From Cupriavidus basilensis (lineage in GTDB: Bacteria > Pseudomonadota > Gammaproteobacteria > Burkholderiales > Burkholderiaceae): 64,000 bases of DNA. Below the pieces are notes generated by a model. That model ran no database searches. It saw only the letters and a program-made list of their open reading frames with translations, and was not told where the DNA came from. The position numbers were made by a program, and so were the translations under genes. The DNA lies in NCBI RefSeq assembly GCF_000876015.1, contig NZ_BBQM01000030.1:1-64000 (forward strand), in the 5' to 3' direction. Each line of letters opens with the position of its first letter. Position 1 is the stretch's first letter. Shown here piece by piece: positions 4,800 to 47,367 of the stretch.

Positions 4800-6782
4800 T
4801 TACTGGACCTGCTTGAGCTGGTCCAGGATGGCGGGGTTTTCCAGGGTCGAGGTGTCCTGGGTGATTTCCTCGTTCTTGGCCAGCGAGCGCAACAGGCGCC
4901 GCATGATCTTGCCGGAGCGGGTCTTGGGCAGGTTGTCGCCGAAGCGGATGTCCTTGGGCTTGGCGATCGGGCCGATCTCCTTGCCGACCCAGTTGCGCAG
5001 CTCGGTGGCGATCTGCTTGGCTTCTTCCTCGGTCGGGCGCGAGCGCTTGAGCACCACGAAGGCGCAGATGGCCTCGCCGGTCATGTCGTCGGGGCGGCCC
5101 ACCACGGCGGCCTCGGCCACGATCGGGTTGGACACCAGCGCCGACTCGATCTCCATCGTGCCCATGCGGTGGCCCGAGACGTTGAGCACGTCGTCGATGC
5201 GGCCCATGATGGTGAAGTAGCCGGTTTCCTTGTCGCGGATCGAGCCGTCGCCGGCAAGGTAGAGCTTGCCGCCGAGTTCCTCCGGGAAGTAGCTCTTCTT
5301 GAAGCGGTCCGGATCGCCCCAGATGGTGCGGATCATCGACGGCCACGGGCGCTTGACGACCAGGATGCCGCCGCTGCCGTTGGGCACGTCCTGGCCGGTC
5401 TCGTCGACGATGGCGGCGATGATGCCGGGCAGCGGCAAGGTGCACGAGCCCGGCACCAGCGGCGTGGCGCCCGGCAGCGGCGTGATCATGTGGCCGCCGG
5501 TCTCGGTCTGCCAGAAGGTGTCCACGATCGGGCAGCGCTCGTTGCCGATATTGTGGTGGTACCACATCCAGGCTTCCGGGTTGATCGGTTCGCCCACGGT
5601 GCCGAGCAGGCGCAGGCTGGACAGGTCGTACTGCTTCGGATGGACCTTCTCGTCGGCGTCGGCGGCCTTGATCAGCGAGCGGATCGCGGTCGGCGCGGTG
5701 TAGAAGATGCTGACCTTGTGGCGCGCGATCATGTCCCAGAAGCGGCCGGCGTTGGGATACGTGGGCACGCCTTCGAACACCACCTGGGTGGCGCCGGCGG
5801 CGAGCGGGCCGTAGGCGATGTAGGTGTGGCCCGTGACCCAGCCGATGTCGGCGGTGCACCAGAACAGGTCGTCGGGCTTGATGTCGAAAGTCCACTTCAT
5901 CGTCATCAGCGCCCACAGCAGGTAGCCGCCGGTGCTGTGCTGCACGCCCTTGGGCTTGCCGGTGGAGCCGGAGGTGTAGAGCACGAACAGCGGGTGCTCG
6001 GCGCTGACCGGCTCGGCTTCGCAGGTCTCGGGCTGGCCCTTGGCGACGTCGTCCATCGCGCGGTCGCGGCCTTCGGTCCAGTTGACCTTGCCGCCGGTGC
6101 GGCGATACACGATGACGCTCTTGACGGCTTCGCAGCCACCCAGCGCGAGCGCTTCGTCGGCGATGGCCTTGAGCGGCAGCGCCTTGCCGCCGCGCATCTG
6201 CTCGTCGGCGGTGATCAGCGCGACCGCGCCGACGTCCACCAGACGTTCCTGCAGCGACTTGGCGGAGAAGCCGCCGAACACCACCGAGTGGGTGGCGCCG
6301 ATGCGCGCGCAGGCCTGCATGGCCACCACGCCTTCGACCGACATCGGCATGTAGATGACGACGCGGTCGCCCTTCCTGATGCCGAGCGCCTTGAGGCCGT
6401 TGGCGAACTGGCAGACCTTGGTGTGAAGCTGGCGGTAGGTGACTTTGCTGACGGCGCCGTCGTCGGCCTCGAACACGATCGCCACCTTGTCGGCGTTGCC
6501 GTTGGCGAGGTTGCGGTCGAGGCAGTTGTAGGAGGCGTTGAGCTCGCCGTCCTCGAACCATTTGTAGAACGGCGCGTTGCTTTCGTCGAGCACCTTGGTG
6601 AAAGGCTTGCTCCAGTGCAGCTGTTCGCGCGCATGCCGCGCCCAGAAGCCCTCGTAGTCACGCTCCGCTTCATCGCACAGCGCCCGGTAGGCCTCCATGC
6701 TTGGCACCGCGGCCTGCTTTGCGAACGACTCCGGGGGATTGAAAACGCGATGCTCCTGCATCACCGATTCGATGGCGGACAT
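4800..6782 (-). CDS. acs: acetyl-CoA synthetase
   Basis: A 660-residue AMP-forming ligase that activates acetate with ATP and CoA. Adenylate-forming motifs are present: [15 protein letters not shown] (P-loop-like), the [10 protein letters not shown] segment, the ATPase region around YLAGDG and [16 protein letters not shown], and the C-terminal [11 protein letters not shown] segment whose Lys is the family's acetylation-controlled residue. Length is normal for Acs. The ATG is supported by GGAGA eight bases upstream. It is first in an apparent operon with the symporter and is transcribed divergently from the DMT transporter gene. Confidence 0.97.
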
Positions 6783-18611: not shown

Positions 18612-18657
18612 GCGGCCGTGGAGAAATTGGTAGACTCAGCAGACTTAAAATCTGTTT
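18612..18657 (+). pseudogene. truncated tRNA-Leu(UAA)-like fragment
   Basis: GCGGCCG acceptor strand, TG, D arm GAG/CTC with loop AAATTGGTAGA, and a full anticodon arm GCAGA-CTTAAAA-TCTGT (anticodon TAA) are present. After position 18657 the variable arm, T arm and 3' acceptor strand are missing, so it cannot make a tRNA. It differs in sequence from the intact tRNA-Leu 155 bases downstream, so it is not a simple duplication of that gene. It is probably a remnant of an integration or recombination event. Confidence 0.65.
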
Positions 18658-18660
18658 TGT

Positions 18661-18715
18661 CAAGTCCTTTCTGCTTTCGCCACCAAGCCGGAAGGTCAAT
18701 AGTGGCAAGGACTTG
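18661..18715 (+). repeat. hairpin next to the tRNA fragment
   Basis: CAAGTCCTT (18661-18669) pairs with AAGGACTTG (18707-18715), and GCCAC (18679-18683) with GTGGC (18702-18706), giving a 14-pair stem with a bulge. It directly follows the broken tRNA. It may be part of an RNA or a recombination site; nothing identifies it further. Confidence 0.5.
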
Positions 18716-18811
18716 GGAGCATCCAAGGCGTAGCTTCGCGGCTCGGCTTGATGGTCAGGAGCCAACTAGGAGCCAGCAGGGAGAGGTGTAGGCTCCAGTG
18801 CATCATGTAAT

Positions 18812-19122
18812 GCCCGAGTGGTGAAATCGGTAGACACAAGGGACTTGAACAATTTGAGCCCTCCGGGGGAAACCCCAGAGGTGAAGCCCGTCAAAGTCGG
18901 CGAACGCCCTGGATGCCCCGGCATCCGAGCCAACGCCGAGCCAAGCCCAGGCCCAATGCCTGGGAAGGTGTAGAGAGCAGACGGCGGGCACCTACGGCTG
19001 CAAGGCTATGGTGAAGGCGTGCTCCAGACCACGAACAGCGCACGCGCTGGCGGCGAAAGCCGAAGTGGTAAGAAAATCCCTCGCCGAAAGGCGTGCCGGT
19101 TCGATTCCGGCCTCGGGCACCA
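18812..19122 (+). tRNA. tRNA-Leu(UAA) split by a group I intron
   Basis: Exon 1 is 18812-18846 and exon 2 is 19073-19122, giving an 85-nt tRNA with encoded CCA. Acceptor GCCCGAG pairs with CTCGGGC, the D loop has AAATCGGTAGA, the anticodon stem AGGGA/TCCCT closes the loop CTTAAAA (anticodon TAA), the variable arm is CGCCGAAAGGCG and the T loop TTCGATT. The interruption falls after the first anticodon base, U34, the site used by the cyanobacterial and plastid tRNA-Leu(UAA) introns. Confidence 0.92.
18847..19072 (+). ncRNA. group I intron (IC3-like) in tRNA-Leu
   Basis: This 226-nt insert carries no open frame for an endonuclease. P1 forms between exon CTT and intron GAG with a U-G wobble at the 5' splice site, and the last intron base is G. 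GAAA tetraloops cap CCTCCGGGG/CCCCAGAGG (P2-like) and CGGC/GCCG at 19051-19062 (P9-like). Core segments GAGCCAAGCC (18938-18947) and GGAAGGTGTAGAGA (18963-18976) resemble, from memory, the Anabaena tRNA-Leu intron core. These features support a self-splicing group I ribozyme. Confidence 0.88.
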
Positions 19123-19129
19123 ATTCAGG

Positions 19130-19161
19130 GGCCGCTTCTGTTGGCGCAGAAGCGGCCTTTT
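19130..19161 (+). terminator. rho-independent terminator after tRNA-Leu
   Basis: GGCCGCTTCTG (19130-19140) pairs perfectly with CAGAAGCGGCC (19147-19157) and is followed by TTTT. Confidence 0.92.
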
Positions 19162-19220: not shown

Positions 19221-20168
19221 CTAGATGTAGTTTCTCAACACGTTGTTCCCCTCGAAGCCAAGGCGAGTGATAGGAGGACGATGTGAAGTTGCCGAGTGTG
19301 GCCGATGGAAGTTGTAGTGGTACATCCACGGCTGCAGTTCCCGCGCTCGATGTTCCGAGGACGGGTAGACGAAGGCATAGGCCCACTCGCGCAGCAAGGT
19401 CTGGATGAAGCGTTCGGCTTTGCCATTGGTCCTTGGCGTGTAGGGGCGCGTGCGGATGTGCTTGATGCCCAGGCGACGCAGCAATTTGGTGAAGCGGCGT
19501 GACTTGTAGGCCGAGCCGTTGTCGGTCATCACTCGCTCAACGTTCACGCCCAGGCTCTTGTAGTAGCGCAGTGCGGCCAGCAGGAAGGCGCAGGCGCACT
19601 TGGCCGTCTCGTCGGCGAGCATCTGGCTGAAGCCCACGCGCGAATGATCGTCGATAGCCACATGCAGCGCTTGCCAGCCGGCACGCGGGGTGTTCTGTGT
19701 GCGATCGCCCGTGACACGGTGGCCAGGCTTGTCGAAGCGCCCAAGCTTCTTGGTGTCCAGGTGCAGCAATTCGCCCGCGCTTTGGCGTTCGTAACGGCGC
19801 ACGGGCACCGTGTCTTGCAACGCGGGCAAGCGCGCCACCGCAGCGGCCTTGCAAGCACGTGCCACGACGCTTATGGACAGGCCCACCCGCTCGGCAATGC
19901 ACGCGTAGGTCAGGCGCTGATTGCGGCGCAGCGCCACCGCCCGCTCGAGCTTGAGGGCATCGCTGCGTCGCGGACTGCGCTCGGGTCGGGAACTGCGATC
20001 AAGCAGGCCGGGCGCGCCCTGGCTGGCCCAGCGACGCTGCCACTTGCGTGCGGTGTGTGCGCTCAAGCCTGCGGCTGCAGCCGCAGGCTTGAGCCCGATG
20101 CGATCGATCTCGCGCACCAGATGCTCTCGACCTCTGGGCGTCATTGAGGCATTCTTGTGGATGTTCAC
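19221..20168 (-). CDS. IS481-family transposase
   Basis: About 315 residues from the GTG at 20168 (VNIHKNASMTPRGRE, a typical start for the family). Residues 1-100 hold helix-turn-helix domains (AAAAAGLSAHTARKWQRRW). The rest is a DDE integrase core: HLDTKKLGRF (first Asp), MTDNGSAYKS (second Asp) and TNGKAERFIQTL (Glu). It is full length, so the element may be active. The stop codon TAG (19221-19223) is supplied by the target duplication outside the IS. Confidence 0.92.
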   Translation of the reverse strand: MNIHKNASMTPRGREHLVREIDRIGLKPAAAAAGLSAHTARKWQRRWASQGAPGLLDRSSRPERSPRRSDALKLERAVALRRNQRLTYACIAERVGLSISVVARACKAAAVARLPALQDTVPVRRYERQSAGELLHLDTKKLGRFDKPGHRVTGDRTQNTPRAGWQALHVAIDDHSRVGFSQMLADETAKCACAFLLAALRYYKSLGVNVERVMTDNGSAYKSRRFTKLLRRLGIKHIRTRPYTPRTNGKAERFIQTLLREWAYAFVYPSSEHRARELQPWMYHYNFHRPHSATSHRPPITRLGFEGNNVLRNYI

Positions 20169-20251
20169 ACGGGGAGTCCTGAAGAAAGTTGGCCGGCTTG
20201 AGAACCTCCATCTTCCTTCACCTCGGGTGAACAACCTCTTGGGAAACTACA
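19226..20251 (-). mobile_element. IS481-family insertion sequence, complete
   Basis: The 1026-bp element has imperfect terminal inverted repeats, left TGTAGTTTCTCAACACGTTG and right (reverse complement) TGTAGTTTCCCAAGAGGTTG. It is flanked by a 6-bp direct repeat GCTAGA (19220-19225 and 20252-20257). Intact ends and an identical target duplication point to a fairly recent insertion. Confidence 0.92.
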
Positions 20252-20322: not shown

Positions 20323-22200
20323 TCAGCCCAGATGCTCCGCACCTCGGATTACGGCCTCGGGGAATAGATTCTGCGCCACGATCGCGGTGCGAGCCGCTGC
20401 GACATCGGGCACAAAGGCCACGACTGCCAAGTCCTTCGTTGCACGCGAGCAGCACACATAGAAGAGGCGGCGGGTTCGATCGAGTACGGACTCTTCACCT
20501 GCCGCCAGGTTGGCTTCGTCCTTGTCCGAGAGGGGGACGTACCCGAGATACTTCCCGTAAGAATACTGCCGGAAGCCCGCTTCCTCATCGTCGATGACGA
20601 CCAATACGCGCTCAAATTGGGCACCCTTCACCCCATGATGCGTCGCGAACGGTGACTCCTCTGTAAAGTAGCGCCGGTAGGCCCAGAGTTCGTCGACACC
20701 GCATGCCAGATAGGCTTGAACGTTCTCGAAGCCGCTGCTGCCGTCATCCACAGGCTCTGCAACCAGATGCATGGCGAAGCGATCATCGAGGCGCAGCAAC
20801 TCGTTATCTCGCACATGCGTCAAGACGTCCCGGATAGTCGCCTGCGATCCTGCTGCCAACAGACCGACAAGCCCGTCGAGCGCTTGCTGTAGCGCTGTAA
20901 GAACGGGGGCCGTCGCTTGCCCTCGAAGCCGCGCTGGTTCAAGCCTCGGGCATTCGCTGCGCAAGGTCGATATCACTGTGAACCGATCACCCGCTTGCGC
21001 CGCGACAACGAGCGGAAGTATGTGCTGGACAAGTGGACGGAGCGGCCAGGCTGTGCCATCGCTCAGCCCTTCACTCAGACTCATGGGGGCTCGGTCATTG
21101 AGCGCAGCATACAGATTAGGGAACCCGAGCCGGTTGGCCGCCATGCGGTGCACCAGTACAAGCAGGCGGACATCGCCTTCCCGCACGTCGCTTAGCCACA
21201 GACCGTCGCCGGTTTCGGCGGCCAGCCACTGCCTAATGGCCGCGAGGCGCGCACTCCGCTCCGCGTCCGCCGGCAGGATGAACAGATTGGAGGTACCGGC
21301 AACCGGCTGCTCGATGCCATCAACGGTTATCGTCCGACCACGCACCTGCTCAAGACCGTCGCCAGGGGCGCGGATTGCATTGATGACCCCGAGCACCGAT
21401 GTCGGGCACCGGAAGTTCTCGGGCTTTGTGATCTCCGCCCAGCCGTCGTTCAGCGGGACAGTGCCTGCTCCGCTCATATAGATCTTCTGCATCGGGTCTC
21501 CGAAGAACCCGACACACAGGCCAGGATGTTCGCCCGCAATGTGCCGTAACGCCTCGACGACCTCCGGATTGGTGTCTTGGCTCTCATCGACGAAGATGTA
21601 GGGAAAGCGCTTAGCGACGAGTTGTCTCAGCAGCGGATGCGCTGCGACGCAGGCTGGGGTGAGCTTGAGGATATCGTCATGGCCAAGGATGCCTTCAGCG
21701 TAGCTGCTGCCGGTGCCGTAGACGAACTTCTCTACTTCACTGATCGCAGCCAGATCGGCTTCGAGATCTGCGATCTCCTGTTCGAGGCGGGCCTTCGTTT
21801 TCGCCTGAGTCCGAGGCTTGTCGTAGTGTGCGCGTCGCTCCGCGATCTTCTCGTCGATGCGGATGGCTACCCAAGCCGCGATATCCGAATGGAACGGCCG
21901 GATGACTGACCACAGGAAACTGTGGATGGTCGAGATGTGGAATAGCGGCGAGGCCCCGACATCGGCCGAAATCTCACCGACGGCGACTTCGGTATATGTG
22001 ATGCAGGCGATTTGTTGCCCGGCGCGGCGCAGGGCAGGACCGCGGGTCTCGGCTAGGTGCGCCATAGCCTTGATCAGCGAGGTCGTTTTCCCCGACCCCG
22101 CACCGGCGACCATGACAAACGAGCGTGGCGGCATCCGATCGAGACACGCTCGAACATCTAGATCGGCTTGTGTGTCAGGACTGCCGATCCGGCTTGTCAT
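20323..22200 (-). CDS. gajB: UvrD-like helicase, GajB-type
   Basis: A 625-residue superfamily 1 helicase-like protein: Walker A GAGSGKTT (33-40), motif Ia region ITYTEVAVGEI, Walker B FVDESQDTN, motif III GDPMQKIY, and motif VI RRLFYVCCSRATKDL near 585. Its ATG overlaps the stop of the OLD-family gene by four bases. An OLD nuclease followed by a UvrD-like helicase is the composition of the Gabija anti-phage system, in which GajB is the partner of GajA. It is larger than the Bacillus cereus GajB I recall (about 500 residues), so this is a divergent type. Confidence 0.75.
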   Translation of the reverse strand: MTSRIGSPDTQADLDVRACLDRMPPRSFVMVAGAGSGKTTSLIKAMAHLAETRGPALRRAGQQIACITYTEVAVGEISADVGASPLFHISTIHSFLWSVIRPFHSDIAAWVAIRIDEKIAERRAHYDKPRTQAKTKARLEQEIADLEADLAAISEVEKFVYGTGSSYAEGILGHDDILKLTPACVAAHPLLRQLVAKRFPYIFVDESQDTNPEVVEALRHIAGEHPGLCVGFFGDPMQKIYMSGAGTVPLNDGWAEITKPENFRCPTSVLGVINAIRAPGDGLEQVRGRTITVDGIEQPVAGTSNLFILPADAERSARLAAIRQWLAAETGDGLWLSDVREGDVRLLVLVHRMAANRLGFPNLYAALNDRAPMSLSEGLSDGTAWPLRPLVQHILPLVVAAQAGDRFTVISTLRSECPRLEPARLRGQATAPVLTALQQALDGLVGLLAAGSQATIRDVLTHVRDNELLRLDDRFAMHLVAEPVDDGSSGFENVQAYLACGVDELWAYRRYFTEESPFATHHGVKGAQFERVLVVIDDEEAGFRQYSYGKYLGYVPLSDKDEANLAAGEESVLDRTRRLFYVCCSRATKDLAVVAFVPDVAAARTAIVAQNLFPEAVIRGAEHLG

Positions 22201-24533
22201 GCCGCTACCTCGTCGCCGGCGGCGACTGGTGCCCCCTGGGGCGCGTCCTCATGCGGCTGGCCCTCATGCGGCTGGTCCTCGTCCGGTTCCGGCGGCGCAA
22301 TCTCGGTCTCAAGCCAGCTCAGGCCCTCGGCGATATAGGTTGGGACAGACCAACTGCTCGGATCTTCGGCTAACAAGGCGAGCGCGAAGTCGGTCTTGCT
22401 GAAGCTCTTAGCCTGCACGCGCTTGTGGATGCGTTCCGCAAGCGTGGTCAGGTTCTTCTCGTCGGCCTTGGCGATGCGGAGCTGAAGCGGCTTACGGTTC
22501 TTGTCCTGACACCATTCAAGATTTTCGAGTGCGAATGCTTCCTCCAGCGTGCGCCCGGCTAGCGCCAGGGTTTCTCCGCCCCAAGTGACATCGGTCCGGC
22601 ACTGATAGGCAACGCGTACCAAAGCGTCATTGTCGTCCGTCCTCGCCTGGATCTTCTGCTCAGCCGTCGCCTCCCACAGGGCGGCGACCGTGTCGCATTT
22701 CGGTAGCCATTGGAGCAAAGTCTGATTGGACGTCGCCGCGCCCGGATGACCGGCTATGCACGCCTTCCCGGGCTTCTCCGCAGCCACAGGCAAATCCTCC
22801 TCGTCATCGTCAATGTCCTCAGCGTCAGCGCCGGCAGCCTGCGCGTTCTCGGCGGCTGGTTCCGCGGCTTCCGGTTGACCAGCGGGTGCCGCACCCTCGC
22901 CATCCTGCCCCAGTGGACCGAACACGCTGTCGAGATCGGTGATGATGAGCGTTGTCAGTCCGAGAAACTCGATCAGCGTTTTGAATCGGTAGCCGAACGC
23001 TCCGCCGATCTCTAGGACGGTGAGATAGGTCGATTGCAGCCGCGGCGCGGCATTGGCGATCATCTGCGGCAATAGCAGCCGTTCGACATTGCCTTCGACC
23101 AGCACGGCGCCATCGGCGAAGAACAGATCGCAGTGCGCGAGTTTCAAATAGCGCTCGAGGAAGCTTCGGATGTCCGGATCGGTGCTGTCGTAGAAAACCG
23201 AGAGGTTGAGCACATCGGAGGTCGACACATTCTGTGCACGGCTTCGACGAAAATAGCGGATCGGCCGGAAGCCTCGTTCGTAAAGGATATGAGTCGAATG
23301 GGTCGTGACGACGACCTGGCTCGTATAGTGCGTGCGGTCCTCGCCCTTGAGCGCTAGGATGTCCATCACCTTGCGTATGAAGGCCTGTTGAAGCTGGGCA
23401 TGGAGGTGCGCTTCGGGCTCCTCGATGAAGATCAGGTGGACCGGCGGACGGTTTTCCTCGATCGCCAGCCATTGAGCGTGGAGGTCGAGCAGCTCAACGA
23501 CCATGAAGATGAGGTTTTTGAAGCCAAGACCGTTATACCGATCGGGCAAGGTAGGCGGGTCGGGCTTCCCGTCATCGGCTCCCAACGCATAGTGAACGAT
23601 CGCGCCATCTCGACCGCTCATGATCTGGGCAGGGTCGAGGGCCGAGCGGATCATCATGCGCGGGTTTGAGAGGCCCGGATAGCCGAGCTTCGACAAGCTC
23701 TTGAGCGTCGGTTCGAACACTCGTTCGAGATGCTCATTAAGCGAGACTTCGGATGCTGCGAGGGCGCGCAACGCTTCGATATCTTCGCCTTTCTGTTCGA
23801 GGTTGCGCCCGTAGAAGCGACTGAGTACACGGGAGAGATCCTCGGCGCGAGAGCCACCTGGGCCGTCCGAGAGATGGCGCTGTGCGTTCAAGAAGTCAAT
23901 GTGGAGAAGGCCGTTCAAGATCTCACGGCCGCTCCGGTCGCGTCCGGTGAGAGTGGCTGGGTCATAGCCAGCCTCTGCGACCATCTTCGCATCGAACCGC
24001 GCGGGATCGAGTACGAAATAGCGCAGCTCATATTCGTCATGTAGCCTGTCGCGAAGGAACTCCCGCAGGTTACGTGGCGAGGGATCGAAGGCGGGTGCTC
24101 CGTCTTCACCCTTAGCGACCGCATCGAGCACGCGCTGGCGCACTTCGACATAGCGTGCATGCGTCGCCGCAGGATTGGTGGGCGCGTAGGCAACACGCAT
24201 CCCCACCAGCTTGCCTTCCCAAGCAAGGCTGGGAAGAAGATCGATGACGCGGTGAACATCGTCCGGACCGATTTCGAACCAAACGTCGATTTCCATCGTG
24301 GGAAGGCTCGCCTCGCCATCGCCCTCACCAAACGCAACGATGTCGGCCCAAAGTTCGGCACTAAAGTCGTGAATGTTGAAGCGGCCACTGCCAGTGAATA
24401 ACTGGAGTGCGTGCCCGACTGATGTCTTGCCGCTGTTGTTGGCACCGACAAAAATAGAGATGTCGGAAGCAAGATCAATTACAACGTTTCGCAGCCGCCT
24501 GAAATTCCGGACGGCCAACTTCTTCAAATGCAT
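22197..24533 (-). CDS. gajA: OLD-family ATPase/TOPRIM nuclease, GajA-type
   Basis: A 778-residue protein. The N-terminal ABC-type ATPase has Walker A GANNSGKTS (30-38), the FIEEPEAHLHAQLQ Walker B region and the VVVTTHSTHIL switch histidine. The TOPRIM nuclease domain follows, with GAVLVEGNVERLLLP (catalytic Glu) and TTLIITDLDSVF (DxD). An Ala/Glu/Asp-rich linker (about 560-610) interrupts the C-terminal part. This is the class 2 OLD layout that pairs with UvrD-like helicases, as in Gabija. By family knowledge it would cut phage DNA when nucleotides are depleted; that activity here is inferred. Confidence 0.8.
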   Translation of the reverse strand: MHLKKLAVRNFRRLRNVVIDLASDISIFVGANNSGKTSVGHALQLFTGSGRFNIHDFSAELWADIVAFGEGDGEASLPTMEIDVWFEIGPDDVHRVIDLLPSLAWEGKLVGMRVAYAPTNPAATHARYVEVRQRVLDAVAKGEDGAPAFDPSPRNLREFLRDRLHDEYELRYFVLDPARFDAKMVAEAGYDPATLTGRDRSGREILNGLLHIDFLNAQRHLSDGPGGSRAEDLSRVLSRFYGRNLEQKGEDIEALRALAASEVSLNEHLERVFEPTLKSLSKLGYPGLSNPRMMIRSALDPAQIMSGRDGAIVHYALGADDGKPDPPTLPDRYNGLGFKNLIFMVVELLDLHAQWLAIEENRPPVHLIFIEEPEAHLHAQLQQAFIRKVMDILALKGEDRTHYTSQVVVTTHSTHILYERGFRPIRYFRRSRAQNVSTSDVLNLSVFYDSTDPDIRSFLERYLKLAHCDLFFADGAVLVEGNVERLLLPQMIANAAPRLQSTYLTVLEIGGAFGYRFKTLIEFLGLTTLIITDLDSVFGPLGQDGEGAAPAGQPEAAEPAAENAQAAGADAEDIDDDEEDLPVAAEKPGKACIAGHPGAATSNQTLLQWLPKCDTVAALWEATAEQKIQARTDDNDALVRVAYQCRTDVTWGGETLALAGRTLEEAFALENLEWCQDKNRKPLQLRIAKADEKNLTTLAERIHKRVQAKSFSKTDFALALLAEDPSSWSVPTYIAEGLSWLETEIAPPEPDEDQPHEGQPHEDAPQGAPVAAGDEVAA

Positions 24534-25517: not shown

Positions 25518-25736
25518 CTACCTTGCGTGGCGTCTAAATCCCCGGTCCCCCGCCATGAACGCCTCCAGCATATGCGGGATCAGCGTCATGGCGTCGACCG
25601 TCTCGCCATACGTCTGTGCGTGCAGCGCGGCGTAACGATCGAGGTCTGCCTTGAGGCTGCCCGAGCAAACAAAGGTCAGCTTGACGCTCTCGGTCTTGGG
25701 CAGCGGCCCGAGTCGCAGCTTGCGGGTCGTGCTCAT
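25518..25736 (-). CDS. DUF2274 family protein
   Basis: A 72-residue protein beginning MSTTRKLRLGPLPKTE with VKLTFVCSGSLKADLDRYAALHAQTYGETV, the DUF2274 pattern. These small proteins end trb operons of Tn4371-like elements and resemble ribbon-helix-helix or antitoxin-like proteins; the function is unknown. Its ATG overlaps the trbI stop by four bases, so it is the last gene of the trb operon. Confidence 0.8.
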   Translation of the reverse strand: MSTTRKLRLGPLPKTESVKLTFVCSGSLKADLDRYAALHAQTYGETVDAMTLIPHMLEAFMAGDRGFRRHAR

Positions 25737-27019
25737 CTCGAACTCCCCCGGTTGAAGAACAGCGGCTGATAGGGGCGGAGAACCAGGTCGCGGTTGACGA
25801 TGATCCGCACCGGCAAACCCGGCCGTTCGGTCAGCGTCGGCTGGATGTTGAGGTTGCGCCGGGTCATTTCCTGTCCGACCTGGTTCACGCTGTCCTGCAA
25901 GCTGTCGCGTCCGGCGATGATGACGCGGTCGCCGTTCTGGCGGTTCCCCGGCGAGGCCAACTCGGCACCGACGCCCAGCAGCGTCGTCAGGGCGGCGCCG
26001 GCGAAGATGCGATCCCAATGCCAATCGACACCATCCTCCAGGCCGGCATAGCCGGCCGGGTCGGTGCCGGCCAGGTTGTCCAGCGTCAACGAGGACGTGT
26101 CCGGCAGAATGATCCGGTTCCACACCACCTGCACCCGGCTCTGGCCGTAGCTGACCTGGCTGTTGTAGCGCCCGAGGATGCGCGCCCCCTGTGGAATCAG
26201 CAGATGCCGGCCCGTAGCCGTGTCGTAGACAGGCTCCGTCACCGTAGCGATCACGTCGCCCGGCAAGTCCGACTTGATGCCCGTCACCAGCGCGCCCGCG
26301 ATCACGGTTCCGGCCATCACCTGATACGGAGACGCCGGCAGCGCCAGGTTGCCGGAGTTGCGGGTTTCCGTAGAACCGGCTTTCAGGAACGCTTCTTTCT
26401 GGTCTTGCCGGTTCTGCACGGTCGTCGGGTCGGCGGGCTGGGCCGCCGTCGAGGCAGGCCCGGCAGCGAGAGGAGCGAAGGCCGCGAGTGTGTTTGCAAC
26501 ACCAGGCGCACCCGGCGCAGCTTGCGCGACCGTGGTGGCGGCCTGGCCCTGGGCGCCCGAGCGGAAGAACACCGACGAGGCCGCCGCCGCGTCCGCCTCC
26601 TTGCGCAAGGCATCTTCGGGATCATGGCCTGGCGGCGAATAGCCCGGCGTCACCGGCTGCTGCGAAGCGACGATGGCCGGGCCAAGGTCGCCGGGCAACG
26701 GCGGCCCCAGCTCGGGCACATCGGGCGGCAAGGCTGGTGGCAGCTTCGAGTAATCCGTCGGCAGCGCATCCAGTCCTTCGGACTTCGAGACGCGATCGAC
26801 GTTGTAAAGCTCGGTTTGCTCGCCCGTACCGCGCCGCTGCGGTTGCAGCGACCAGATCGTGGCCCCAAGCACGGCGACCGACAGGCCGCCGACGAGGATG
26901 GCCAGCGTGCGCCGGTTCAGGCCCGTGACCGGGCGCGGCTGGGCGCGCAGCGCCACCGCCTCGGGCGCGACCTTGCCCGCCTGCGGCGTGGCGAGGTCGG
27001 GGGTGTTGTCCTGGCTCAT
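25733..27019 (-). CDS. trbI: TrbI, VirB10-like mating-channel protein
   Basis: A 428-residue inner-membrane-anchored protein spanning the periplasm of the conjugative type IV secretion system. One helix is at about 38-57 (LAILVGGLSVAVLGATIWSL), then a long Pro/Ala-rich stretch (80-210). The conserved C-terminal VirB10/TrbI domain includes PYQVMAGTVIAGALVTGIKS and the ATGRHLLIPQGARILGRYNS region. Length is normal. It lies between trbG (2 bases) and DUF2274. Confidence 0.93.
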   Translation of the reverse strand: MSQDNTPDLATPQAGKVAPEAVALRAQPRPVTGLNRRTLAILVGGLSVAVLGATIWSLQPQRRGTGEQTELYNVDRVSKSEGLDALPTDYSKLPPALPPDVPELGPPLPGDLGPAIVASQQPVTPGYSPPGHDPEDALRKEADAAAASSVFFRSGAQGQAATTVAQAAPGAPGVANTLAAFAPLAAGPASTAAQPADPTTVQNRQDQKEAFLKAGSTETRNSGNLALPASPYQVMAGTVIAGALVTGIKSDLPGDVIATVTEPVYDTATGRHLLIPQGARILGRYNSQVSYGQSRVQVVWNRIILPDTSSLTLDNLAGTDPAGYAGLEDGVDWHWDRIFAGAALTTLLGVGAELASPGNRQNGDRVIIAGRDSLQDSVNQVGQEMTRRNLNIQPTLTERPGLPVRIIVNRDLVLRPYQPLFFNRGSSR

Positions 27020-27021
27020 GG

Positions 27022-28005
27022 TCAGTTCCTCCGTGCCACGCCATCCGTGCGCTCGATCCGCACCACGTCGCCCTTGTCACCGCCCAGGCGCAGTTCGGCC
27101 GCGCCGAACAGCCGATCCACGATGTAGTACGGCGAGCGGAAGCGGTAGTTCACCAGTTGCCCGTCGCCCTGCGCGCCGATGACAAACAGCGGCGGCAGCT
27201 CGCCTTGCGCGATGCCCGCCGGAAACTGGATATAGACCTTTTCGCCGTCATCGAACGCACGCAGCGGCTTCCAGGGCGGATTGCTGCCGCTGATCGCGTA
27301 GCGGAAGCGCAGGTTCTCCAGCGCCAGCCCGGTATCGACAGGCGCGGCGGCATTGGCCGCCTGCGCCTGACGCTGTAGCGCCAGCATCCGGTCGCGCGGA
27401 TACTCCCAGGACACGGACGCCATCCACGTCTTCTCCGTCGAAGCCAGCTCCAGCAGGTACGTCCTGCGGCTGGTGGTAATGACGAGATTGGTCTTGAGGC
27501 CCGAGCGGATCGGCTTGACCAGCACGTTCACGCGCAGGTCGGCACCGCTACCGCTGGACGTGTCGCCCACGATCCAGCGCACGGTATCGCCGGCGGCCAC
27601 CGTCACCAGTTCCTCGCCCGGCTGGAGCGAAACCACGGTCACACGGCCGACGGCCGCATAGACCTGATACAGCGCGCCATCGGTGAAGGGCCAGACCTGA
27701 ATCGCATTGACGTAGCCCTCGCGCGTGGGCGCGACGCGGGCCTCGGCATTGGCGCGCGAGACGCGCACCTTCTCGTCGGCCGGCTCCGGCGCGGGTTTGG
27801 CGTCCTCGAGCGGCTTCAACTGCGCCGGCATTGGCAGCACCTCGGGCACGGCCACCACTTCCACCGGCGCGGGCGGCTCCGGCAGCGGCTGCGCCTGCAC
27901 CGGCTCATCGAGCGAGATGGTTGGCGGTGGCTTGCCCTGCGAGGCGCAGCCCGCGAGGGCGAGCAGGATCGCCGGCAAAGCGGATTTACGGAAAAGATCA
28001 TTCAT
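27022..28005 (-). CDS. trbG: TrbG, VirB9-like conjugation protein
   Basis: A 327-residue outer-membrane-associated component of the mating channel. The start MNDLFRKSALPAILLALAGC is a lipoprotein-type signal with lipobox LAGC. The VirB9 domain runs from about 100 (EGYVNAIQVWPFTDGALYQV) with VSLQPGEELVTVAAGDTVRW, to a C-terminal segment with YRFRSPYYIVDRLF. The gene overlaps trbF by four bases. Confidence 0.92.
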   Translation of the reverse strand: MNDLFRKSALPAILLALAGCASQGKPPPTISLDEPVQAQPLPEPPAPVEVVAVPEVLPMPAQLKPLEDAKPAPEPADEKVRVSRANAEARVAPTREGYVNAIQVWPFTDGALYQVYAAVGRVTVVSLQPGEELVTVAAGDTVRWIVGDTSSGSGADLRVNVLVKPIRSGLKTNLVITTSRRTYLLELASTEKTWMASVSWEYPRDRMLALQRQAQAANAAAPVDTGLALENLRFRYAISGSNPPWKPLRAFDDGEKVYIQFPAGIAQGELPPLFVIGAQGDGQLVNYRFRSPYYIVDRLFGAAELRLGGDKGDVVRIERTDGVARRN

Positions 28006-28706
28006 GGCTTGGCTCCTTCGGAAGAATCCAGTTCGCGGCTCCACGACAGGCCGTTGACGTAGATGCCCAGGGGGTTCTTGCGCAGGCGTTCTTCGGTGCG
28101 CGGCGGCTGGAGCACGATGGACACCACGGCCGTCCATCGCTCCAGCCCAGCCGCGGCGCCGTTGACGTAACGGCGTTCCGTCCAGCGCACGTTGAAAGAG
28201 GTGTCGCTGGCGCGCACGACGCTGGTGATCTGTACCGTCACAGACTCCTTGCCGATGCGCGCGAACGGGTCGTTGACCCGCGCGTAGTCGTTGAGCACGG
28301 CCGCGCCCTTGTCGGTCGTGTAGTCGTAGGCGTCGAGCCAGTTCTGGCGGACGACGATGGAGTCGATGGACAGCGAGCGCACCAGCGTCACGAAGCGCGC
28401 GATGTGGTGCGCGGTCTGCGCATCGTTGGGCCGGTATGGCGTGGCGGCTTCGCCCACGGCGCGTACCTGGCCCGCGTTGTCCACCTCCACGACGTAGGGC
28501 GTCACGATGGATTGCGCCGAGCGCCACACCAGCCCGCCGGCCATCAGCAGCGCAAGCGTCAGGCAACCGAAGGCCATCAGGCGCCAGTTCTTCGCCTGGA
28601 CGCGCGGCGAGCCGATGCGCTCGTCCCACACCTGGCCGGCAGCTTGGTACGGCGTGGCAGGCTGCGGCGTGTCGGCGTAGCGCACCTGCGGTTTCTTGAA
28701 TCGCAT
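28002..28706 (-). CDS. trbF: TrbF, VirB8-like conjugation protein
   Basis: A 234-residue bitopic inner-membrane protein: cytoplasmic N terminus (FKKPQVRYADTPQPATPYQA), one helix at about 43-62 (LMAFGCLTLALLMAGGLVW), and a periplasmic VirB8-like domain with PYVVEVDNAGQVRAVG and FNVRWTERRYV. It helps assemble the type IV channel. It lies 12 bases after trbL. Confidence 0.92.
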   Translation of the reverse strand: MRFKKPQVRYADTPQPATPYQAAGQVWDERIGSPRVQAKNWRLMAFGCLTLALLMAGGLVWRSAQSIVTPYVVEVDNAGQVRAVGEAATPYRPNDAQTAHHIARFVTLVRSLSIDSIVVRQNWLDAYDYTTDKGAAVLNDYARVNDPFARIGKESVTVQITSVVRASDTSFNVRWTERRYVNGAAAGLERWTAVVSIVLQPPRTEERLRKNPLGIYVNGLSWSRELDSSEGAKP

Positions 28707-28718
28707 GGTCAGTTCTCC

Positions 28719-30104
28719 TTATGAATCGGAATCGCGCAGGCTCGGCCCCTGGCCGGAGCCGCCGCCATCGCCACCGCGCAGCGCGTGGGCGGTGGTGGTC
28801 GCGGCGTGGGTGAGTTGCTGGCGGCGATGCAGGCGCTTGGCCCAAGCGGGCTGTTCCTGTGTCTGCGCCGTAGCGGCGCCGGATGCGGCCTCGCCTGCGG
28901 CACCCTGACCGGATGCCGCGCCCGCGCCGCCATCGGCGGCAGCGCCGTTCCAGCCAGCGCGGAAGGGAGCGGCCATGCGTTGCCCGGCAGCGGATGCACG
29001 GGATGCAGCCGCACGTCCGGCGGACTGCGCGCCGGTCTTGGCGACGTTGCCCAAGCCCGCCATCGCGCCCTTTGCGCCGCCGCCAGCGGCGGCGGAGCCG
29101 GCCTGGAACGCCGATTTCGCACTGCCAGCCGCCGACGTGGCCGCACGCGCACCAGCGCCGGCCAGCTTGGCGGCAGCCGGTGCCATGCGCGCGCCAGCGG
29201 CCACGGCACCGCCTACGCCCGTCGCGGCAGCACCAACAGCCACCGCCGTCCCGGCTGCGCCGATGGCAGCGCCTGCCATCGCACCCGCGCCGAGCTGCGG
29301 CGCACCGGACACAAGGCCCGTGGCGATGCCAGGGCCGAAGATCCCCAGCGCCAGCAAGGTGAGCGAGGCCAGCATGATGACCAGTGCGTGGTCGAGCGAC
29401 GGCTCATCGGGATGGACTTGGAACTGAGTGAACAGGCCCGAGCCGATACCGACGATCACGGCCAGCACCAGCACCTTGACGCCGGAGGCCACCACGTTGC
29501 CCAAGACCTTTTCGGCCAGGAACGAGGTCTTGTTCCAAAGCGCGAACGGCACCAGCACGAAGCCCGCGAGCGTGGTCAGCTTGAACTCGATCAGCGTGAT
29601 GAATAGCTGGATCGCCAGCACGAAGAAGCAGAGCACCACGACCAGCCAGGCGAGGAACAACACCAAGATGGCATCGAGGTTCAAGAACACCTCGGGAAAT
29701 CCCATCATGTCGTCGAGCTGGAGGAAGATCGGCCCGCCCGCGTCAAGGCCGGTTTTCGCCAGCCGGCCCGGCTGCAAGAAGTTCTCCATCGTGATGGCAG
29801 AGCCGGTGGCGGTGATGCCCAATCCCGCGAACGAGCGGAAGACGATGCTCGCCAGCCAGTTGAAGTTGTTGATGATGTAGGCGAAGGCGCCGACGTACAG
29901 CACCTTGCGCAGCAGCTTGGCGATCACGTCCTCGCCCTGGCCGGTGGCGTGGCTCATGGCCCAATACAGGCCGGCGATCGTCATGTCGATGACGATCAGC
30001 GTGGCCGTGAGGAACGCCACTTCGCCCCGCAGCAGCCCGAAACCCGAGTCGATGTAGGCAGCAAAGGTGTTGAGGAATTGGTCGATGATGGTCACGTCAT
30101 TCAT
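28719..30104 (-). CDS. trbL: TrbL, VirB6-like conjugation membrane protein
   Basis: A 461-residue polytopic membrane protein (at least six hydrophobic helices between about 25 and 260, e.g. LVVVLCFFVLAIQLFITLI), with the TrbL/VirB6 features of the inner-membrane mating channel. The C-terminal 200 residues are an Ala/Gly-rich, low-complexity tail typical of Tn4371-type TrbL. It overlaps the upstream exclusion lipoprotein gene by four bases. Confidence 0.92.
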   Translation of the reverse strand: MNDVTIIDQFLNTFAAYIDSGFGLLRGEVAFLTATLIVIDMTIAGLYWAMSHATGQGEDVIAKLLRKVLYVGAFAYIINNFNWLASIVFRSFAGLGITATGSAITMENFLQPGRLAKTGLDAGGPIFLQLDDMMGFPEVFLNLDAILVLFLAWLVVVLCFFVLAIQLFITLIEFKLTTLAGFVLVPFALWNKTSFLAEKVLGNVVASGVKVLVLAVIVGIGSGLFTQFQVHPDEPSLDHALVIMLASLTLLALGIFGPGIATGLVSGAPQLGAGAMAGAAIGAAGTAVAVGAAATGVGGAVAAGARMAPAAAKLAGAGARAATSAAGSAKSAFQAGSAAAGGGAKGAMAGLGNVAKTGAQSAGRAAASRASAAGQRMAAPFRAGWNGAAADGGAGAASGQGAAGEAASGAATAQTQEQPAWAKRLHRRQQLTHAATTTAHALRGGDGGGSGQGPSLRDSDS

Positions 30105-30421
30105 GGCGTGTCCTCCGGTTCGGCAGGAACGACCGGCGCCACGCCATCGGCCGGCTCATCAAAACTCGGCGGGATCGGTGGCAGCTCGGCCAAGGTCTGG
30201 TATTCATCCGGCCCGGCTTGGCCGGAGAAGAAGCGCCGCCGGAAGGCTTCGGCGGCGGCGCGGCAAGCGTCCTCGCCCGTGGCCTGCCGGTCGGCCGCGC
30301 ATTGCGCGCGCAATGCCTTGAGCCGCACGGGATCAGCGGCCAGGGCATCGGCAAGGTGGTCGGCCGGCTGCTCGCCGCAAGCGGCCAGCAGCGCGGCACA
30401 CAGGACGAGGACGCATCGCAT
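30101..30421 (-). CDS. trbK: TrbK-like entry-exclusion lipoprotein
   Basis: A 106-residue protein: signal peptide with lipobox (LCAALLAAC, Cys at about 15), then AADPVRLKALRAQCAADRQATG and CRAAAEAFRRRFF. Between trbJ and trbL, as trbK in IncP plasmids, it should be an inner-membrane or periplasmic lipoprotein that blocks entry of the same element. Family assignment rests on position, the lipobox and the paralogue at 38074-38352, which shares the ERLKELR-xQC pattern. Confidence 0.78.
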   Translation of the reverse strand: MRCVLVLCAALLAACGEQPADHLADALAADPVRLKALRAQCAADRQATGEDACRAAAEAFRRRFFSGQAGPDEYQTLAELPPIPPSFDEPADGVAPVVPAEPEDTP

Positions 30422-30433
30422 GGCGGCCTCCCG

Positions 30434-31159
30434 TCAGTTGCCGTAGAAATCCACGCGCTGCGGCGTGTACGGCGTGCCATCGCCCATGAACCGCCGCCGT
30501 ACTTCGCGCGCGCGCTCGGTGGCCGCCGCCTGCCGCGCCAGCTCCAGCGCGGCAGCGCGATCCTGCGTGATCTGGAGCCGCTGCGACTGGATCGACTGCT
30601 TGGCCTGCAAGGCGAGCAACTGGTTCATGGCCTGCATGGCTTGGAGCGCCCCTTCGGCCGACTGGCTCTTGCCCACGAGGTCGGCCAGCACGCTTTCGTC
30701 TTCGCCCAGGTTCTGCGACACCTGCGCCTGCATCTGCATCGTGGTCTGCAAGCCGTTGAGCGTGTTCCGCCAACGCTCCTGCGCGTCGCGGTACATCTGG
30801 TCGCCGCTGACGGTGGCGGCGTACTGCTCGGGATACAGGCGCGCGAACTCCCGATCCAGATTCGTCACGTCGTAGGCCAAGCCTCGGGCCTGGGCGATCA
30901 GCCGCTCGGTCGTTGCCAGATTCGCGCGCAACTGGCCGACCACGCTGGACGGCAGGCTGGCGAGGTTGCGCGCCTGGTTCATCAGCATCTGCGCTTCGTT
31001 CTGAAGCTGCTGGATCTGGTTGTTGATCTGCTCCAGCGTGCGGATCGCGGTCAGCGTGTTCTGCACGAGGTTCGTGGGATCGACCACGACCCATTGCGCA
31101 TGGGCGGTGGCAGTGCAAAGCATGGCCGCAATGGCGGCGGCGATAAGGCGCTTTTTCAT
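30434..31159 (-). CDS. trbJ: TrbJ, VirB5-like conjugation protein
   Basis: A 241-residue periplasmic/surface protein. Residues 1-21 are a signal peptide (MKKRLIAAAIAAMLCTATAH). The helical body contains QINNQIQQLQNEAQMLMNQA and other heptad runs, as in VirB5 adhesin-like pilus-tip proteins. It ends in VRRRFMGDGTPYTPQRV, a tail also found in the exclusion lipoprotein near traG. It overlaps trbE by four bases. Confidence 0.9.
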   Translation of the reverse strand: MKKRLIAAAIAAMLCTATAHAQWVVVDPTNLVQNTLTAIRTLEQINNQIQQLQNEAQMLMNQARNLASLPSSVVGQLRANLATTERLIAQARGLAYDVTNLDREFARLYPEQYAATVSGDQMYRDAQERWRNTLNGLQTTMQMQAQVSQNLGEDESVLADLVGKSQSAEGALQAMQAMNQLLALQAKQSIQSQRLQITQDRAAALELARQAAATERAREVRRRFMGDGTPYTPQRVDFYGN

Positions 31160-33609
31160 GACAGGTTCTCCAGGGGTTGGTCAGCGAGGGAACCCGGCGC
31201 GAGGCCGGGGAACGAGGGCAGCAGGTCGGCCGCCCAATCGAGGCCGCGATGGCGCAGCCAAGCGCCCGCGAAGCCGGGCACGCCGGCGTCCAGCAGCACG
31301 CGGCCTATGTCGCGCTGGTCTTGCGGCGTGGACGCGCCCGCGAAGGCCAGGGCCGCCGGCCCCAGGTCGAGGTCGAACAGGCGGTTGCCGAGGCGGGATT
31401 GGTAGTAGTAGTCACGCTTGGGCTGCGCGGTGGCGACGATTTCGATCTGCCGCCTGTTGAGGCCGAAGCCCTCGTAGATCGTGCGAATCTGCGGCTCTGT
31501 CGCCTGCGGGTTGGGCAAGAAAATCCGACTCGCACAGCTCTCGATGATCGCGGGCGCGATGCTCGAATCCTTGATGTCGGCAAGGCTCTGAGTGGCGAAG
31601 ATGACGCTGACGTTCTTTTTCCTGAGCGTCTTGAGCCACTGCCGGATGCGCGCCGCGAACACCGGGTCATCGAGGAACAGCCACGCTTCATCGAGGATCA
31701 GCAGCGTGGGCGCCCCGTCGAAGCGTTCATCGAAACGCGCAAAGAGGTAAGGCAGCACGGCCATGACGGCGGCCTTGCTGTGCATCAGCTCCTCCATCTC
31801 GAAGCACTGCACGTCGGCCATGCCCAGCCGGTCGTGGTCGGCGTCCAGCAGCTTGCCGTGGGCGCCACCCAGCACATAGGGCGAAAGCGCCTGCCGCAGC
31901 GTGTTCGATTGCAGCAGCACGGAAAGTCCCGTCATCGTGCGCTGCTCCACCGGCGCACCGGCGAGACTTCCCAGCGCCGACCAGATAGCCGCCTTCTCGT
32001 CGGGGCCGACTGCCACGCCTTCGTGCAGCAAGCGGCCTTCGATCCATTCGGCGGCCCAGGTGCGGTAGCCCTCACTGTCGATGCGCGCGAGCGGCTGGAA
32101 GGCGATTTCGCCATCCGTGCCCAGGTCGTAGTGCTCGCCGCCCAGGCCGAGGATGGCGGCCCGCATGGAACGGCCCATGTCGAAGGCGAAGATGCGCGAG
32201 CCGCGATAGCGGCGGAACTGCATCGCCAGCGTGGCGAGCAAGACCGACTTGCCCATGCCGGTCGGGCCTGCGACCAGCGTGTGGCCCACGTCGCCGATGT
32301 GCGTCACCAGCCGGAACGGCGTAGCGCCATCGGTACGTGTCACGATCAACGGTGGGCCGTCCAAATGATCGTTGCGCTCCTGGCCGGCCCATACCGCCGA
32401 CACCGGCATCATGTGCGCCAGATTCAGCGTCGAGACGATGGGCTGGCGCACGTTGGCGTAAGCATTGCCGGGGAGCGAGGACAGCCACGCATCCACGGCG
32501 TTGAGCGTTTCGGGGATGGTGACGAAGCCCCGACCCTGTATGACGCGCTCCACCATGCGCAGCTTCTCGTCGGCCACGGCGGCGTCCGCGTCCATGACGG
32601 TGACGGTCGCCGTCAGGTAGCCGAAGGCGACTTGATCGCTGCCCAGCTCCTGCAAGGCAGCATCGGCGTCGGCGGCCTTGTTGTTGGCGTCGGTATCGAC
32701 CAGCGGGCTTTCCTGCTGGAAGATCGTTTCGCGTAGCAGCGCGATGACGTTCTTGCGCTTGGCGAACCACTGGCGGCGCAGGCGGGCGAGTTCTCTTTCC
32801 GCCTCGGCTTTGTCGAGGCAGAGAAAGCGCGTGCTCCAGCGGTACGCAAAGCCCAGGCGGTTGAGGTCGTCCAGAATCCCCGGCCAGGTCGAGGTCGGGA
32901 AGCCCCGCACCGACACCACGCGCAGGTGCTGGTCGCCCAGCATGGGCGCCAGGCCACCGACCAGCGGCGAGTCGGTCAGCAGCGCGTCGATGTGGAACGG
33001 CACTTCGGGCACGCCGACGCGATAGCGCCGCGTCGAGATGGTCGCGTGCAGGTAGGTCAGCGTCTGCGCGTCATCGAGCCAGTCAATCTCCGGCATCACG
33101 CCGTCGAGCAGGTCAAAGACGCGATCCGTTTCCGCGACGAAGGCTTGCAGCCGCTCGCGCCAGTCCACGCCATTCGTCGGCGTGTTCTCGTAGAGCATCT
33201 TGGCTGCACGGGCGCGGGATTCTTCCGGCGGCAGGTAAAGCAGCGTCAGGTGATAGCCGCTCTCGAAGTGATTGCCCGATTCCTCGAAGGCGGCCCGGCG
33301 TTCTTCCTCCACCACCCAGGAAAGCGGCTCGGGAAACTCCGAGTGCGGATAATCGGCCGCAGGCCGACGCTCGGCTTCGATGAACAGCGCCCAGCCCGAT
33401 CCCATGCGGCGCAGCGCGTTGTTCAACCGTGCCGACGTGGCGATCAGCTCGCCTTGCGTCGCGCTGTCGAGGTCAGGCCCGCGAAACCGGGCCGTGCGCT
33501 GGAAACTGCCGTCCTTGTTCAAGACGACGCCCGGCGCGACCAGTCCGGCCCAGGGCAGCCAGTCGGCAAGCAAGGCCGGCCGCTGGCGGTATTCGGCGAG
33601 GTTCAGCAT
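31156..33609 (-). CDS. trbE: TrbE, VirB4-like conjugation ATPase
   Basis: An 817-residue ATPase that powers pilus and channel assembly. The C-terminal half holds Walker A GPTGMGKSVLL near 447, Walker B LLILDEAWLFLDD near 640, and the ATQSLADIKDS motif. The N-terminal half is the CagE/TrbE domain (FRGPDLDSATQGELIATSAR region). Full length, no frameshift. It lies 15 bases after trbD. Confidence 0.95.
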   Translation of the reverse strand: MLNLAEYRQRPALLADWLPWAGLVAPGVVLNKDGSFQRTARFRGPDLDSATQGELIATSARLNNALRRMGSGWALFIEAERRPAADYPHSEFPEPLSWVVEEERRAAFEESGNHFESGYHLTLLYLPPEESRARAAKMLYENTPTNGVDWRERLQAFVAETDRVFDLLDGVMPEIDWLDDAQTLTYLHATISTRRYRVGVPEVPFHIDALLTDSPLVGGLAPMLGDQHLRVVSVRGFPTSTWPGILDDLNRLGFAYRWSTRFLCLDKAEAERELARLRRQWFAKRKNVIALLRETIFQQESPLVDTDANNKAADADAALQELGSDQVAFGYLTATVTVMDADAAVADEKLRMVERVIQGRGFVTIPETLNAVDAWLSSLPGNAYANVRQPIVSTLNLAHMMPVSAVWAGQERNDHLDGPPLIVTRTDGATPFRLVTHIGDVGHTLVAGPTGMGKSVLLATLAMQFRRYRGSRIFAFDMGRSMRAAILGLGGEHYDLGTDGEIAFQPLARIDSEGYRTWAAEWIEGRLLHEGVAVGPDEKAAIWSALGSLAGAPVEQRTMTGLSVLLQSNTLRQALSPYVLGGAHGKLLDADHDRLGMADVQCFEMEELMHSKAAVMAVLPYLFARFDERFDGAPTLLILDEAWLFLDDPVFAARIRQWLKTLRKKNVSVIFATQSLADIKDSSIAPAIIESCASRIFLPNPQATEPQIRTIYEGFGLNRRQIEIVATAQPKRDYYYQSRLGNRLFDLDLGPAALAFAGASTPQDQRDIGRVLLDAGVPGFAGAWLRHRGLDWAADLLPSFPGLAPGSLADQPLENLS

Positions 33610-33624
33610 CGCGGCGTCCTCCCC

Positions 33625-37838: not shown

Positions 37839-38073
37839 GACCTGGCCTCCGATTTCTCCTGCGCTGCTTCCTCTTGGAAGGAGCGGCACAAATGCGTGCC
37901 GCATGCCTCAGGATCGGTGCCCCGTCAGTGCCGGTCAAAGACCGTTTTGAGCAGAAAGGTCGAGGAAAGAGAAAGAATTAGTGCGGCGGCGAGCCAAAGA
38001 AAAACGCCGCAAGCGCAGGCGCGTTGCTGTGTGTCGGGCAGAAAATGAAGTCGATGAGGCGAGCTGCCAACGA

Positions 38074-45502: not shown

Positions 45503-46891
<1,389 letters not shown>

Positions 46892-46938
46892 CTAGTACCC
46901 AAACTGCCAACATTAAAAGGCCCGGCGAGTGCGCGTAC

Positions 46939-47349: not shown

Positions 47350-47367
47350 GCGTGCTCCTTGAGGATG

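Follow-up and report, generated by a model that had tools for sequence, protein, structure and literature searches.

It has long been asked how group I introns that lack a homing endonuclease move among the tRNA genes of bacteria, and the locus described here bears on this question. A tRNA-Leu(UAA) gene interrupted by a group I intron in the betaproteobacterium Cupriavidus basilensis may have received its intron in place or may have come from elsewhere as a whole. The cyanobacterial tRNA-Leu(UAA) intron inserts after U34, and Vepritskiy and colleagues reportedly described a tRNA-Leu(UAA) intron from gamma-proteobacteria in 2002. The window, by which we mean the whole stretch of 64,000 nucleotides that was analysed, holds the gene in the following parts.

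18812-18846, plus strand: 5' exon of the replacement tRNA-Leu(UAA), up to U34 (brute-force splicing, intron delimitation)
18847-19072, plus strand: group I intron of 226 nt with its terminal G at 19072 (exon borders, covariance match, alignment fold)
19073-19122, plus strand: 3' exon of the replacement tRNA-Leu(UAA), with CCA encoded
19130-19161, plus strand: terminator-like hairpin 3' of the tRNA, GGCCGCTTCTG...CAGAAGCGGCC followed by Ts (read from the sequence)

Brute-force splicing of the locus returned a tRNA-Leu(UAA) at these borders and, in addition, one tRNA-Gln candidate that we take as spurious. When 18812-19122 is spliced in silico across the 18846/19073 borders the product is an 85-nt tRNA-Leu(UAA), and the intron lies between U34 and A35, which agrees with the first-pass annotation in the length of the joined tRNA and in the insertion after U34. 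The unspliced gene was not called by ARAGORN run on the window. Inspection of 18840-18861 places a U-G pair at the 5' splice site of the 226-nt intron, and by inspection the guide GAGCCC (18856-18861) pairs with the 5' exon with one A-C mismatch; the U-G pair and the terminal G had both been read beforehand and both are present. A search with the Rfam model Intron_gpI (RF00028) had also been proposed as a check, and its outcome was divided, as the model matches 18837-19027 with 32.1 bits (E 2.5e-6 in a search of 701 bases) and stays under the gathering score of 50, which was not reached in the search of the whole window either. Leu-type introns with identical exon borders were delimited in 76 cases from the loci examined, the window included, a set that contains several near-copies. 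An alignment of 26 of these 76 introns yielded a group I-type fold with invariant core blocks, in which both sides have changed in 31 of the 47 predicted pairs (the pseudoknotted P7 being excluded from the 47), and this covariation bears out the reading of the insert as a group I intron of 226 nt. On these sequence grounds the locus is confirmed, beyond chance, as a tRNA-Leu(UAA) gene with a group I intron after U34. The intron should excise itself after transcription and leave a normal tRNA-Leu(UAA).

The first-pass annotation had named tRNA-Ile (Azoarcus) and tRNA-Arg (Agrobacterium) as the well-known proteobacterial examples. With 76 Leu-type introns delimited, introns in tRNA-Leu are common in Proteobacteria, and the intron by itself is therefore not novel. 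Scanning the genome contigs with an 18-letter pattern gave at least 118 stretches, not all of which are introns. The same genome carries a related group I intron in a tRNA-Leu(CAA) gene (C41:295336-295660, L009), which also has a similar hairpin 3' of it. C34 precedes the splice site in this gene, as it does in a second case (L162:1518-1741), these being 2 of the 76 Leu-type introns, and its P1 should end in a C-G pair rather than in the U-G pair that is, to our knowledge, near-universal in group I introns. Five CAA genes of relatives that were examined (L036-L039, L044) are intronless, and a synteny comparison for the C41 gene was nearly empty, with one 57-bp match. Brute-force splicing further suggests candidate introns in tRNA-Thr(UGU), Arg(UCU), Leu(CAA) after U33, Lys(CUU) and Met (L124, L129, L136, L140, L141, L145).

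The origin of the gene is clarified by the remains of another tRNA-Leu(UAA), of which the left part lies in the window.

18612-18652, plus strand: displaced 5' half of the host tRNA-Leu(UAA), comprising the 5' strand of the acceptor, the D arm and the anticodon arm, with the end GACTTAAAATC; left attachment site (identical to the beginning of the native gene in relatives)
18644-18654, plus strand: attL core, an 11-bp direct repeat CTTAAAATCTG, whose second copy is at C33:80440-80450, outside the window

The 3' half of the host gene begins at C33:80443, on the same contig as the 5' half, and the two halves joined at AAAATC make an 87-nt tRNA-Leu(UAA) with 12 of 12 stem positions paired. Its acceptor stem is GCGGCCG, that of the intron-bearing gene GCCCGAG. 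The insert between the two CTTAAAATCTG copies amounts to 61,796 bp and sits within the anticodon arm, and the corresponding empty site is seen in relatives: in all five intact loci tested (L164, L165, L168, L177, L193) the sequences on both sides agree with the host flanks and adjoin at the tRNA. A 43-nt pattern of the native start, made from the displaced 5' half and searched with three mismatches allowed, was found in 48 of 60 genomes of the genus, this genome included; the native start continues past the core in 45 of them, and the gene is split in this genome, in G020 and in G028. Thirty native-gene loci were fetched out of 49 pattern matches, and apart from the two split ones the whole native gene could be read in all of them (28/28). 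The full-length intron gene occurs in 12 of the 60 genomes. A native gene unsplit at the core is present in none of these 12 and in 45 of the 48 genomes without the intron gene (Fisher 3e-10, uncorrected for relatedness, most of the 12 being close kin); the three exceptions among the 48 are G012, which is 54% complete, G047 and G028.

These observations bear directly on the transfer of an intron into the host's tRNA-Leu, the possibility raised by the first-pass annotation. Under such an explanation the host's tRNA-Leu(UAA) gained the intron and the conjugative genes nearby are coincidental, which would suit an intron at the classical site of tRNA-Leu(UAA) as well as nine relatives that have the intron gene in its native place and no element. 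We nevertheless consider it very unlikely, as the host gene lies in two displaced halves, with another acceptor stem, at the ends of an element with an integrase. The intron-bearing gene is not the host's own tRNA plus an intron; the host's own gene lies elsewhere, in two pieces 61.8 kb apart. The suspected horizontal origin survives in a wider form, in which the entire tRNA gene with its intron would have arrived on a conjugative element. The test for a restoring island was negative, in that neither element end completes a host half and a whole tRNA gene sits inside the element; because neither end rebuilds the gene, the host tRNA has been destroyed and both of its halves displaced. We reject a gain of the intron by the native gene, an origin of the halves as pseudogene fragments, and an island of the canonical restoring kind, and a 420-nt mobile unit made of spacer, tRNA 5' half and intron is ruled out by the 3' half 61.8 kb away.

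The element itself, with the genes encoded in its window part, is composed as follows.

18653-64000, no strand: integrative conjugative element, window part (displaced halves at both ends, empty site in relatives, conjugation genes)
18653-18811, plus strand: left-end spacer of the element (alignments, blastn)
20323-22200, minus strand: GajB (Gabija), cargo (PADLOC GajB 1.2e-232)
22197-24533, minus strand: GajA (Gabija), cargo (PADLOC GajA 3.3e-257)
25733-37904, minus strand: conjugation gene region (Pfam)
25733-27019, minus strand: TrbI (Pfam)
31156-33609, minus strand: TrbE-like protein (Pfam)
34274-35341, minus strand: secretion ATPase (Pfam)
35811-37904, minus strand: TraG/VirD4-type coupling protein (Pfam)
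45503-48426, minus strand: cargo region with dioxygenase and aldolase (Pfam)
45503-46879, minus strand: Rieske ring-hydroxylating dioxygenase, cargo (Pfam)
47368-48426, minus strand: DmpG-type aldolase, cargo (Pfam)
52900-55260, minus strand: relaxase-like DUF3363 protein (Pfam; Relaxase model match below cut-off)
56738-57445, minus strand: ParA (Pfam)

The whole element occupies C33:18653-80448 (61,796 bp), with the intron-bearing tRNA starting 159 bp inside its left end. Near the right end, at a distance of about 180 bp and next to the attachment site with direct repeats, lies the gene for a 400-aa tyrosine recombinase. Type IV secretion genes and the coupling protein are present, the relaxase is represented only by the DUF3363 protein with its sub-threshold Relaxase match, and a ParB protein is also encoded. 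By its gene content the insert is an integrative conjugative element (ICE), which would be able to excise and transfer. Its left-end spacer is common to Variovorax (L159), Hydrogenophaga (L075), Lysobacterales (L058) and another member of the genus (L034). The replacement tRNA is followed immediately by a transposase-like ORF, IS481-type by eye (window 19221-20234), and two ThsB-like TIR proteins (Thoeris type in PADLOC) are encoded near the right end (L023:8995-10137 and L023:13697-14164). The Cupriavidus plasmids L006 and L007 carry copies of the left end of the element in which the tRNA ends inside the intron and the host 5' half is absent.

Taking the split host gene, the empty site and the gene content of the insert together, it is very probable that an ICE splits the host tRNA-Leu(UAA) and brings its own intron-bearing gene, which may persist after the element has decayed. 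The 61,796-bp element would insert by means of its tyrosine recombinase into the anticodon arm of the host tRNA-Leu(UAA), at the core CTTAAAATC. The host gene would be lost by this insertion and its function taken over by the complete gene that the element carries 159 bp inside its left end, from whose transcript the ribozyme would be excised to give a normal tRNA-Leu(UAA) that would be charged as such. Later the element may decay, the intron-bearing tRNA remaining as a fixed chromosomal gene. Nine genomes (L024, L026-L033) have the intron tRNA bordered on either side by the same host sequence and lack the element, the simplest reading of which would be that the element was lost after the tRNA had been replaced; with the gene in the native place and the element absent, the tRNA-intron unit would thus spread as a replacement tRNA.

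How far the host depends on the replacement can be judged from its other tRNA genes. RF00005 has 57 matches in the genome, of which we read all ten of at least 82 nt and three others. The ten long ones are four tRNA-Ser, three tRNA-Leu(CAG), one tRNA-Leu(UAG), one tRNA-Leu(GAG) and one SeC-like; no intronless UAA or CAA tRNA gene is among the 13 matches read, and the other matches are too short for a tRNA-Leu. Judged by these matches, the intron-bearing gene is the only tRNA-Leu(UAA) found in the genome, and the decoding of UUA codons by the host should rely on the ribozyme of a mobile element.

The arrangement recurs in other genomes. Apart from the window we examined 79 Leu-type introns, near-copies included; 14 of them are preceded by a displaced tRNA-Leu 5' half, in Alpha-, Beta- and Gammaproteobacteria and in one Acidobacteria MAG. 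For the remaining 65 the sequence fetched shows no recognisable displaced 5' half, and decay, short stretches or other origins are possible reasons. Twelve genomes out of the 14 with a 5' half were searched for the 3' half, which was found displaced in eight, and ARAGORN reported no complete tRNA in any of those eight 3'-half loci; in one of these genomes the 3' half, near a contig start, retains some letters of the 5' half (L194). Homologues of the integrase of our element lie beside six of the eight 3' halves, with identities of 100% over 400 aa in Variovorax sp. WDL1, 91% in Hydrogenophaga, 65-68% in three others and 31% in one. All ten joined pairs of halves, those of this genome and of G028 included, read as tRNA-Leu(UAA). 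On average they form 11.7 of the 12 pairs of the acceptor and anticodon stems, whereas 82 mismatched pairings average 7.95 and one of these reaches 11. Both halves are on one molecule in this genome, in G066, whose complete chromosome has them about 34.6 kb apart, and, with a different element, in G028; in the other genomes they are on different contigs or their linkage was unchecked.

It could still be argued that the displaced halves are unrelated fragments of tRNA pseudogenes or an artefact of an assembly that consists of 62 contigs, in which a single pair of halves was found. Such an explanation is extremely improbable in view of the match of the halves to the native gene of relatives with 12 of 12 stem positions pairing, of the nine other genomes with such halves, each pair of which rejoins to tRNA-Leu(UAA), and of the flanks that meet at the tRNA in 5/5 intact loci tested. 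Similar layouts are seen in Variovorax, Hydrogenophaga and several Alphaproteobacteria.

More than one kind of integrase is associated with these genes. A second type stands directly upstream of the intron-bearing tRNA in L046, L069, L070 and L112, each of which has a displaced half further upstream; both types belong to Pfam Phage_integrase and gave no significant blastp match to each other. In a survey of 300 genomes of the order, homologues of the first integrase (61-70% identity) lay beside a recognisable tRNA-Leu half in 0 of 10 cases, the window's own excepted, so that this integrase family does not always target tRNA-Leu(UAA). For the second integrase, a survey of 398 genomes of the phylum found a recognisable intron beside none of eight homologues, four of which lie beside tRNA-Met and one of which is broken. 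Two of the eight are tandem copies in one genome (G613; L227/L233), accompanied by half of a tRNA-Leu(CAA) gene and by a whole tRNA-Leu(CAA) that lacks an intron; beside another (G712, L231) we see, by eye, half of a tRNA-Leu(UAG) in reversed orientation and a tRNA-Leu(UAG) that likewise lacks an intron. Neither survey showed a tight coupling of these integrases to intron-bearing tRNAs. The intronless replacement tRNA comes directly after the integrase in the elements of G613 and G712 (by eye in G712). On a tree of the introns, made by a quick method without bootstrap, the 15 labelled rows are scattered and the displaced-half arrangement is not clustered beyond shuffles, with 13 changes, at least 6 of them forced, against a shuffled mean of 14.0 and 121 of 500 shuffles as low; these counts are approximate, the L054 label being on a plus-strand intron while the half belongs to a minus-strand one.

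Whether the intron plays any part in the biology of the elements is a separate matter. In the replacement gene it splits the attachment core, as CTT / AAAATC. The anticodon-arm DNA attacked by the integrase is indispensable to any functional tRNA-Leu(UAA), so an intron that splits this DNA would mask the gene; the intron might in this manner hide the replacement from the element's own integrase and from competing ones while the sequence of the mature tRNA is kept. We advance this idea tentatively and regard it as rather unlikely. If it were true, the ribozyme would amount to immunity at the DNA level, and group I introns would persist in tRNA-Leu through selection on elements. The intron is more probably a passenger, that is an old resident of tRNA-Leu(UAA) which elements captured once or a few times and which has no role in their biology, a reading to which we give modest preference. 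It sits well with the intronless replacement tRNA-Leu(UAA) in a prophage-like element of G028, with the second-integrase elements that bring intronless replacements at tRNA-Leu(CAA) (G613) and, by eye, at tRNA-Leu(UAG) (G712), and with the introns that the same scan yielded in other tRNAs; it sits less well with two distant integrase types that both bring intron-bearing UAA replacements, and with an attachment core cut exactly by the intron. Because intronless replacements exist (G028, G613, G712), an intron carried as a passenger is at present more likely than one that masks the attachment site. The element of G028 (G028:C1:2863240-2881506; L209, L211) is about 18 kb long, prophage-like by eye, and splits the same native tRNA-Leu(UAA) with another tyrosine integrase. 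Its replacement tRNA is on the opposite strand, near the right end, and the core is one base different (GACTTAAAATT).

Placing the replacement of a host tRNA by an intron-bearing gene among known systems requires several comparisons. Group I introns in tRNA genes are known in alpha- and beta-proteobacteria and, in tRNA-Leu(UAA), in cyanobacteria and plastids, according to excerpts of PMC4033280; the present intron resembles these in its presence in tRNA-Leu(UAA) and in its group I core and fold, whereas here the tRNA gene travels on a conjugative element and stands in for a host gene that has been broken. Islands that insert into tRNA genes as a rule rebuild their target and leave one displaced fragment, as stated in the relevant part of PMC4383910. 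Our element has in common with such Islander-type islands (PMC4383910) the tyrosine integrase, the tRNA target, the anticodon-type attachment site and the direct repeats, but it displaces both halves and provides a whole gene apart from them. A search that looks for a standard tRNA plus its fragment would probably miss islands of this kind, as the intron-bearing gene goes uncalled by ARAGORN.

A comparable layout is that of the Pasteurellaceae elements ICEPmu1, ICEMh1 and ICEHin1056, which occupy the anticodon loop of tRNA-Leu (sections of PMC6028734 and PMC6861422); a passage of PMC6028734 has the tRNA-Leu disrupted at both ends and an intact copy supplied at the ICE end. An ICE in the anticodon loop of tRNA-Leu and a gene both disrupted and replaced are thus shared features (PMC6028734), while the word intron, a feature present here, appears in neither PMC6028734 nor PMC6861422. 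In the first 12,000 and last 2,394 of the 59,393 bases of the ICEHin1056 record, only the 3' part of a tRNA was found, at the start of the record, and in these regions the element reads like the ordinary restoring type.

Archaeal tRNA introns, which are protein-spliced, provide a further comparison. Sugahara et al. 2012, as cited in a passage of PMC8371274, proposed an intron-bearing attP as the vector of archaeal tRNA introns. Both cases have a mobile element as the vector of a tRNA intron; there the intron is in attP (PMC8371274, same passage), whereas the intron here is a group I ribozyme, housed by a distinct replacement gene within the element. IStrons, in which a group I intron is joined to a DNA-mobility enzyme (excerpt of PMC4227781), likewise tie a group I intron to such an enzyme, the difference being that their intron is within the transposing unit and the integrase here is outside the intron. 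In a literature search that left subscription papers largely outside, no element of this sort was described as bringing a replacement tRNA with an intron, and a conjugative element whose separate replacement tRNA contains a ribozyme would be new in this form. The locus would offer a concrete vehicle for introns of this type, in that conjugative elements break tRNA-Leu(UAA) and supply an intron-bearing substitute that can outlast them, and would represent one route by which self-splicing introns pass between bacteria.

An intron-bearing tRNA-Leu(UAA) is also found near aac(3)-IId on pCTX-M3 (L002, about 4820-5293) and on other plasmids, including L003. A query derived from pCTX-M3 matches 645 of 5426 E. 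coli genomes, at 596 places on plasmids and 85 on chromosomes, and the sequence ACTTAAAAAGTCTTTT, upstream of the pCTX-M3 copy, is similar to the left ends found in L057 and L135.
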